Origin: Bifidobacterium subtile
Lineage (GTDB): Bacteria; Actinomycetota; Actinomycetes; Actinomycetales; Bifidobacteriaceae
DNA length: 64,000 nucleotides
Assembly (NCBI RefSeq): GCF_000741775.1
Contig: NZ_JGZR01000008.1
Span: 62,001 to 126,000, forward strand
Reading direction: 5' to 3'
How positions within the stretch are numbered: the first letter of the stretch is position 1; each line of letters begins with the position of its first letter. Positions 1-52,255 of the stretch are shown here, in pieces. The notes below the pieces were generated by a model. The model worked only from the letters and a program-made list of their open reading frames with translations, did no database searches and was not told the origin of the DNA. The translations under genes were made by a program, and so were the position numbers.

Positions 1-119
1 AAGATATATGAAGTCTTAGTATTAACAGCTCTTCATACGACCGCTGACTGCAGTGAATGCCGAATAGCCGACTGCCATAGATTCCGCCGTTCTCCCCCTT
101 CACTCGTACTGTGGTTTGC

Positions 120-263
120 ATGACAATCACCGTATCGACAGACGGCAGCGCATTAGCTGAGCCGTCAAGCAGACAGTCCAGTGGACTGTCTGTAAGCGAA
201 GTGAGCGACCGCCAAGGTCGCGAAGGGGCCGTTGGAATTGCCGGACATTGGAGTGCGAAATGA
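120..263 (+). pseudogene. Duplicated RNase HI start followed by dispersed repeat (47-codon leader ORF)
   Basis: The first 35 bases of the downstream RNase HI gene are present twice, at 120-154 and 260-294, with two mismatches. From the ATG at 120 the frame stays open through the 70-bp dispersed repeat for 47 codons. It stops at TGA 261-263, which overlaps the real rnhA start at 260 as ATGA. No Shine-Dalgarno precedes position 120, whereas GGAG precedes 260. The simplest reading is a rearrangement in which the repeat entered near codon 12 and the gene start was re-duplicated. It could also serve as a coupled leader peptide, but that is inference. Confidence 0.6.
156..225 (+). repeat. 70-bp dispersed repeat, copy 1
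   Basis: This segment matches the reverse complement of 52167-52236 over 70 bases, with a few substitutions, one single-base indel and a small variable patch. It contains the perfect palindrome GACAGTCCAGTGGACTGTC flanked by CGAAGTGAGCGACC-type sequence. Two copies 52 kb apart in opposite orientation indicate a small dispersed element with no coding capacity. Confidence 0.75.
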
Positions 264-1537
264 CAATCACCGTATCGACAGACGGAAGCGCCTTAGGTAA
301 TCCCAACGGCCCTATGGGCTGGGCATGGGCAGACCATAATACGAATCCGACGCAGGGCAGCGAGCACCGGCACGATGGCGACTGCGACGCGGGCGGCGCG
401 ACGAACGGCACCAACCAGATTGGGGAGCTGTGCGCGGTTTTGGAAGCGCTGCGTGCTCATCCTGGTTCCGAAGACCTTGTGATCGAAACCGACTCGCAGT
501 ATGCCATCAACTGCTCGACCAAATGGGTGCACGGCTGGAAAAAGAACGGCTGGAAGAATTCGCAGAAGAAACCGGTGAAGAACGCGCCGCTCATCAAGGC
601 CATCGATGCCGAACTTTCCAAGCGCTCCGGTTCCGTGCGCTTCAAGTGGGTCAAGGGCCATGCCGGCAACGCAGGCAACGAGAAAGTGGACGATCTGGCG
701 CACACGTACTCCGGCGATGCCCGCAGCGGGGTCAAGGACGGTTACCTGCCGTTGGAGGGCTGGCAGTCGCTGCTGGCCTCCGACTATGCCAAAGGCGTTG
801 ACATTCCCGCCGATGCGCAGATGCTGCTGGATGGCAAGATCACCGCTGAGGAATATCACCTGGGACGCGGCGTGGCATCATCTGCGAACGATGATGGAAA
901 CTCTGGGGACAATGAAGACGGTGACCGGTACGAGGATGCCGCCGCCTATGCCTCCGACGTTGCCTCTTCGCGTCGTAAACCGTCACTGGAAGAGCTGCTT
1001 GCCGAACCCGAAGGGGTGCCGGACTTGCCGGCACGCGTTCAGAAGGCACATAACAGCTCAGCAGAGACCGTGAAATCGCAGACCGACGCATCGGACACAT
1101 CCGCAGATGCTGATTACAACCATGCTCACAGCACTGACGCTGCAGATGATGATTGGCTCGGAGCCGGCACATCCGACGAGGGTTCAGCTGAAACCGACGA
1201 TGGCAAACGGGTCTCTGGCGATGATGAGCGTATGCCCGATGTCAGCAGTCAATCGTCCGACGATAACGCGCAAACGCCGCATTCAATGAACCCCGACACG
1301 GCCACATCGCAAATAGCCGCCGCAGACAACGCTTCGAACCACGGCAAGCCCGATCACCCCGACCAGTCCACAGGCTTGACGCTGTCCGGCACGCTGCGCT
1401 TCACTCCTCCGCCTTCGAGCAGCGCGACCTACGACGGCCGCCCGCGCTTCATCCGAGGCACCGTAACCGTCGAAGGATATGTCGAAGGCGACGGCACCAT
1501 CGTGCTACGCGACGCGCCTTTCGCGGTTGATATGTGA
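260..1537 (+). CDS. rnhA: Ribonuclease HI with long acidic C-terminal extension
   Basis: Cleaves RNA in RNA-DNA hybrids. The RNase H fold occupies about residues 1-150, with the carboxylates visible as D8 (STDGS), E56 (GELCAVLEAL), D78 (ETDSQYA) and D144/D145 (KVDDLAH), plus the flexible-loop H134. The remaining 270 residues are unusual: an acidic, Ser/Thr/Asp-rich low-complexity stretch, then a short ordered-looking C-terminus (about 375-425) with LSGTLRFTPPP and GTVTVEGYVEGDGTI, possibly a small beta domain. The ATG at 260 is chosen because GGAG lies 6 bases upstream; the TTG at 248 only adds four residues. Family enzymes are usually about 150 residues, so the tail is an add-on of unknown role. 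The upstream region carries a duplicated gene start and a repeat. Confidence 0.9.
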   Translation: MTITVSTDGSALGNPNGPMGWAWADHNTNPTQGSEHRHDGDCDAGGATNGTNQIGELCAVLEALRAHPGSEDLVIETDSQYAINCSTKWVHGWKKNGWKNSQKKPVKNAPLIKAIDAELSKRSGSVRFKWVKGHAGNAGNEKVDDLAHTYSGDARSGVKDGYLPLEGWQSLLASDYAKGVDIPADAQMLLDGKITAEEYHLGRGVASSANDDGNSGDNEDGDRYEDAAAYASDVASSRRKPSLEELLAEPEGVPDLPARVQKAHNSSAETVKSQTDASDTSADADYNHAHSTDAADDDWLGAGTSDEGSAETDDGKRVSGDDERMPDVSSQSSDDNAQTPHSMNPDTATSQIAAADNASNHGKPDHPDQSTGLTLSGTLRFTPPPSSSATYDGRPRFIRGTVTVEGYVEGDGTIVLRDAPFAVDM

Positions 1538-51909: not shown

Positions 51910-52255
51910 ACTTCGCTCCTTCGCGCCCATGGACGTATCTATGCCTTGTTATGCTACCGCCCGCCTTGACTTTGCCGAGCCGTTAAGTGGATAACGCGGT
52001 GCGCCATCCGCAAACGAGGCGAGGACACGCTAAGAGGCCGAGGAACGACGGCACCGTCTTTAGGCTTCTGTCCGGTGCCTCATTTCGCTTACCGTCGACG
52101 ATGTCAGCCGGACACCTCATCAGCATGCCCAGCGAAGTCTATGTTCTTCCTCTTGTAACTCGTTAACTTCGCGGCCTTGGCGGCCGCTCAGCTTCGCCTA
52201 CAGACAGTCCACAGGACTGTCTATTCACGGCTCAGCAGCTCAGCCATTCAGCCAT
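51910..52255. other. Intergenic region gpsA-plsC with dispersed repeat
   Basis: About 345 bases. It holds the second copy of the 70-bp dispersed repeat and a weak GGCACCG/CGGTGCC hairpin near 52048-52078. No gene. Confidence 0.5.
52167..52236 (-). repeat. 70-bp dispersed repeat, copy 2
   Basis: Reverse-complement match of 156-225, including the palindromic core GACAGTCCACAGGACTGTC with one central mismatch. It ends 20 bases before the plsC stop codon. Confidence 0.75.

Follow-up and report, generated by a model that had tools for sequence, protein, structure and literature searches.

The closest described type for the element found before rnhA in Bifidobacterium subtile, within a 64,000-nucleotide stretch of genomic DNA (hereafter the window), is the small palindromic repeat with variable duplication, and none of the REP/RAYT, YPAL, RPE, MITE and Rfam types is fully matched. 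YPAL and RU-2 elements of Yersinia, according to the part of PMC2229807 consulted, are small palindromic repeats, not A+T-rich, and the target duplications that go with them vary in length, 3-26 bp in YPAL. Direct copies of differing length, about 26-46 nt, flank many cores of the Bifidobacterium repeat as well; yet the copies of gene ends are longer than in YPAL and also inverted, and era and pcrA loci lacking a core or a remnant mostly lack a strong stem. The same portion of PMC2229807 describes Rickettsia palindromic elements (RPEs) as hairpin repeats of about 100 bp, carrying an open frame and residing within coding sequence. An open frame likewise traverses the Bifidobacterium element at 17 of 18 rnhA loci, but as a separate leader rather than inside a protein, with copies of host sequence at its flanks, and in an unrelated genus. 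REPs and BIMEs, linked to RAYTs, are palindromes near gene 3' ends, clustered with flanking DNA and sometimes supplying stop codons, as far as the consulted part of PMC3733652 goes; compared with that account, no Y1 transposase was found in the genome of the window, the core is longer, and copies of gene ends recur with the core. As to the GTAG or CGTC tag at the palindrome foot of REPs, many cores have GTAG after the first hairpin, and the window copy has GTAA. Template-switch hairpins are reverse-complement copies which make and keep perfect stems (PMC8794818, in its consulted portion); unlike those described there, the copies seen here recur beside one dispersed repeat, often with a direct duplication too. 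A Bifidobacterium repeat of this kind was not found described in the open-access literature, as judged from top-ranked titles and abstract openings. Short leader genes may precede protein-coding genes, ribosomes restarting on the latter. The leader at rnhA differs from these, being built from the gene's own start and the repeat, and seems to take the place of a leaderless one.

The order of the components at rnhA is putative promoter, upstream copy of the gene start (D1), core, inverted copy of a gene segment (B), spacer with a presumptive ribosome-binding site, and native start in the real gene (D2), as detailed in Table 1. The original prediction held that the first 35 bp of rnhA occur twice with two mismatches, that a dispersed repeat lies between the copies, and that the upstream copy stays open for 47 codons up to an ATGA overlap with the rnhA start. 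All this was confirmed, the repeat measuring 71 rather than 70 bp. D1 and D2 differ only at 146/286 and 152/292, the rest of the 35 bp being identical, and the pair can be extended to 44 nt at 89% identity. In the window D1 ends at 35 bp because codons 13-16 are absent from it; in other species its length is about 48 bp. The overlap is less special than it may appear, because most rnhA genes start with ATGAC or GTGAC, so that nothing but the correct frame, free of stops, is required. One component had been overlooked, the inverted rnhA copy B, which matches a segment (A') just past D2. The RnhA protein of the window is 97% identical to that of B. tibiigranuli over 150 columns; it has 425 residues, about 275 of which lie beyond the matched RNase H domain.

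Table 1. Features at the rnhA locus of the window
Feature	Position	Strand	Remarks
TACTGT, -10-like box of a predicted leaderless promoter	107..112	+	7 nt before ATG 120
Upstream copy of the rnhA start (D1)	120..154	+	lacks codons 13-16 here
47-codon leader ORF	120..263	+	ATG 120; stop TGA 261-263 overlaps ATG 260-262 (ATGA)
Dispersed palindromic repeat (core), 71 bp	156..226	+	hairpin GACAGTCC/GGACTGTC at 172-189
Inverted partial copy of rnhA codons 13-18 (B arm)	226..242	+	17-nt arms, 88% complementary to 296-312
GGAG, Shine-Dalgarno-like motif ahead of the real start	250..253	+	
Native copy of the duplicated start (D2)	260..294	+	inside rnhA
rnhA, ribonuclease HI with long C-terminal extension	260..1537	+	NF001236, E 6e-31, 107 bits (curated cut-off 160)
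rnhA codons 13-18, partner of the B arm (A')	296..312	+	

Of the best 80 among 322 related Bifidobacteriaceae loci, 15 have this arrangement ahead of rnhA; with the window and two more genomes (G047, G075), 18 occupied loci are available, three of which (L072, L084, L134) hold tandem units. The best ungapped 36-nt match of the rnhA start within 400 bp upstream scores 25-36 in 14 of the 15, 18-24 in six remnants, and 15-21 in the 59 loci having neither repeat nor remnant (upstream stretches being short in L051 and L100). The fifteenth occupied locus, L044, scores 19 of 36 when the match is begun from the upstream copy, and 31 of 33 when measured from the real start. The comparison with relatives lacking the repeat, suggested along with the original prediction, agrees with it, as none of the 59 loci shows the duplicated start. 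Close relatives with empty sites share the upstream flank, likeness being judged by eye: L040 for the window, L065 and L073 for primatium, L102 and L107 for felsineum, L096 for scaligerum, L053 for biavatii. The flank preceding D1 in the occupied species directly precedes rnhA in the empty relative. L051, L074, L077, L091 and L097 are decayed or core-deleted remnants, and L078 may be a sixth; the latter was treated as a remnant when promoter boxes were counted, and as a locus without repeat in the tree discussed below. In Galliscardovia (L111:2850-3000) a diverged repeat sits at the same rnhA point, and the leader stops after 19 codons.

The two copies resemble each other more within than between species. 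Identity over codons 2-12 is 0.916 for copies of the same species and 0.735 across species, and at third codon positions 0.83 against 0.42 and 0.41; none of 20000 permutations of the pairing equalled the own-copy identity. The own copy matches at least as well as that of any other species at 14 of the 18 loci, the exceptions being hapali, miconisargentati, biavatii and callitrichidarum. Similarly, the B arm agrees with its own rnhA at 15.06 of 17 positions (18 genomes), against 13.18 when permuted, a value as high being reached in 0 of 20000 permutations. The copies must therefore be recent, or have been kept alike. The insertion point lies after codon 16 in occupied loci save the window, where D1 carries its deletion.

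Of 45 empty rnhA loci, 42 have a TANNNT box 6-7 nt upstream of the start, while only 64 of 2400 random positions have one at 4-10 nt; the count leaves aside 14 of 81 loci, which belong to Gardnerella or have uncertain starts. The empty genes thus look leaderless by their sequence, and leaderless starts account for 15% of start sites in B. pseudolongum, according to the consulted part of PMC4782308. Of 16 occupied loci, 14 carry the box at the upstream copy, with a spacing of 6-8 nt, and just one has it at the real start, Galliscardovia, whose leader is broken. The two misses at the upstream copy, L072 and L084, were scored at inner copies of arrays, and the outermost copies carry the box by eye. 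A Shine-Dalgarno-like motif precedes the real start in 8 of 16 occupied and 8 of 45 empty loci.

Whether the frame through the repeat is open by chance in other copies had been proposed as a check: it is open in 30 of 67 copies elsewhere, against 17 of the 18 at rnhA, the species being related and the loci not independent. In 15 of the 18 it stays open to a start overlap of the kind seen in coupled leaders (ATGA, GTGA or, in goeldii, TTGA), and the two other frames hold stops in all 18. Copy distances of 140, 149, 158, 161 and 260 nt all keep the frame; it is not kept in primatium and pluvialisilvae, where the distance is 159 nt and the leader ends at -4, the outermost, promoter-side frame of pluvialisilvae ending within the inner copy. 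In jacchi and moraviense, where the remnants have lost the core, an ATGA end behind a TANNNT start persists. In simiarum the leader frame ends in ATGA, and a TANNNT start was sought and not found. From this conserved anatomy we infer translational coupling at rnhA. The native gene would be leaderless, and with the element in place the 5'-terminal AUG would belong to D1; ribosomes would start on this AUG, read through the repeat, terminate at the rnhA start and initiate anew at that point. Coupling is not obligatory, since in the decayed elements of reuteri and myosotis the leader start codon is lost, and a search for a TANNNT start found none in either. The original prediction had offered an insertion footprint and a coupling leader as alternatives. 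Both fit, and no choice is needed: the locus may well be a footprint now acting as a leader.

Copies of host sequence also flank the repeat at other genes. The 83 best repeat loci come from 17 of the 18 genomes searched, one genome having none, and two of the searches contributed loci for up to 30 matches each; setting aside 7 loci without a recognisable head, 5 at rnhA and 4 same-place repeats leaves 67. As the original prediction had asked of other copies, duplicated host sequence, direct or inverted, flanks 35 of the 67 at a score of at least 16, and none of 166 random positions taken in the same loci; the 35 cases are not independent, as the same genes recur and some are tandem arrays. The remaining 32 have no copied flank at this threshold. 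In 19 of 20 copied-flank loci viewed for context, the stop of the right-hand gene (longest minus-strand frame) lies 66-110 nt from the core start, a count that the range searched, 60-230, itself favours. Right-hand genes include what we take to be a UvrD-type helicase (called pcrA), typA, era, glgP, smc and pncB. None of these 20 loci is a gene-start case like rnhA.

Matches to positions 100-300 of the window number 17 in its own genome, 16 of them elsewhere, and the core was recognised in 11 of 14 stretches of this genome. Spread past the taxonomic family was rejected, as among 197 genomes from the class only that of the window matched at E 1e-4. In one stretch of this genome (L223:2560-3215), between what are presumably sufC and sufS, two repeat copies 364 bp apart each lie inside inverted arms of 29-31 nt that differ in sequence; the other strong matches are arrays of the repeat itself. 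The window holds a second copy at 52167-52236 on the minus strand, apparently just past a gene end, around which direct or inverted repeats of at least 14 nt were sought and not found. Long inverted arms also enclose the repeat in L162, L178, L180, L193, L205, L210, L212, L216 and L221, and in several of these nine the arms share a motif like GGGATATACAATGTCCGAC.

Occupied and empty sites were compared at two of the recurring genes. For pcrA the 30 best loci of 110 genomes were taken, 29 being readable. The stem formed by the gene end and its inverted copy scores 9-18 in all seven loci with a core; among the 22 without, three reach at least 9, all with a core remnant by eye, and the other 19 score 4-7. 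For era (30 best loci of 109 genomes, 29 readable) stems of 14-26 accompany the core in 9 of 9 loci. Stems of 10-23 were found in 8 of the 20 era loci without a recognised core, and a remnant is visible by eye in most of these, being weak in L247 and not clear in L237. Era loci lacking a strong stem score 5-8; at both genes these low-scoring loci, which would tell whether dyad symmetry precedes insertion as at YPAL targets, come from species other than the occupied ones. At both genes, as far as sequence tells, the inverted copy of the gene end is found with the repeat or with what remains of it, a single era locus being unclear.

These data probably describe a family of small palindromic Bifidobacterium repeats residing beside gene ends, often together with inverted (B) and direct (D1) copies of the gene terminus, and forming at rnhA a coupled leader. 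Comparison of the loci establishes, at sequence level, that the copies go together with the repeat, resemble the gene of the same species, and are missing from empty sites. B is a reverse copy spanning the site at which the gene sequence is broken by the core, and D1 duplicates the stretch outward of that site. Both could be produced if DNA synthesis folded back on the gene end and copied it, then switched to a repeat template, and re-entered upstream. The same process, and recombination between D1 and D2, would keep the copies alike; such recombination could also remove the element cleanly. Template switching, reported to create and keep perfect stems (PMC8794818, consulted in part), is a candidate route of copying which we advance tentatively, short of calling it probable; the association of the copies with the repeat is firmer than this route. 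The broader notion that the spread of the repeat itself writes and homogenises direct and inverted copies of gene ends, in a reversible and gene-preserving manner, and in one case converted a gene without a leader into one with a coupled message of two frames, is one that we doubt somewhat more than we credit.

The main rival to template switching is a dedicated, enzyme-driven mobile element making a long target duplication (about 25-50 bp) at gene ends, B being part of a mobile hairpin end. The direct copies flanking many cores, the constant insertion point at rnhA, save in the window, and the YPAL duplications (PMC2229807, consulted in part) are in its favour. Against it, the Y1 (RAYT) domain PF01797, present in 5 of 14 control genomes, has no match in the genome of the window, 98.48% complete, and a RAYT/REP origin was discarded on this ground. 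Contig 23 of the same genome carries three tandem tyrosine recombinases (L222:3707-6822), presumably RIT-like, between 99-nt inverted repeats, 97% complementary; the comparison with resident transposons (the MITE test) covered this trio alone, and the trio was rejected as a source, since no core was recognised in its ends. Plasmid or phage carriage was set aside too, as no match occurred in plasmid or phage records at E 1e-5. No transposase tied to the repeat family was found. Moreover the copies vary in length, and B comes from the host gene. On balance an enzyme of this sort seems unlikely.

Neutral duplication, retained by descent, the leader frame being a by-product without a role, would account for the distance of 16 nt between B and the start in 12 of 18 loci, as descent predicts, and for the two decayed elements without a leader start. 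Peptide-level selection on the leader is weak, pN/pS being 0.57 against 0.71-1.14 in the other five frames (Galliscardovia and tibiigranuli left out), which also speaks for neutrality. Yet the identity of own copies at synonymous sites requires recent copying or continuing homogenisation, it is the upstream copy that has the promoter-like box, and most length changes preserve the frame; we hold this reading quite unlikely. A simple single origin by descent was rejected. In a rapidly built RnhA tree of 82 rows, from which the duplicated codons and L052 were excluded and in which 40 of 78 inner branches are open, presence of the element asks for 15 changes, 5 of them forced by starred branches, and 73 of 500 shuffles are equally low. 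The spread is patchy, hardly more clustered than in shuffles, and fits repeated gains or repeated losses.

An RNA switch selected at rnhA, in which D1 and codons 13-18 would be alternative partners of B, leader translation deciding between them, is the least probable reading, very unlikely in our judgement: B does covary with rnhA, with paired changes at four third-codon positions, and the predicted fold of the window (z -4.76 against shuffles) pairs B with A', but the same architecture occurs at 3' ends of unrelated genes, D1 of the window has lost the pairing arm, the start and the Shine-Dalgarno motif fall in a loop rather than a stem, and template switching yields the same covariation (PMC8794818, in the part consulted). 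A known structured RNA was dismissed, as the window has no Rfam match at gathering scores, and six loci searched at E up to 1 gave a tRNA and five matches under the gathering score.

A caution follows for other loci, as compensatory changes in a stem need not imply RNA function. If insertion routinely copies the gene end both ways, the flanks of these repeats would be a readable record of how a family spreads without a known transposase, and it would be explained why repeats reside in gene termini without breaking genes. The rnhA locus, being full in some species, empty or decayed in others, is a natural system in which to see how a leaderless gene survives the gain of a leader.
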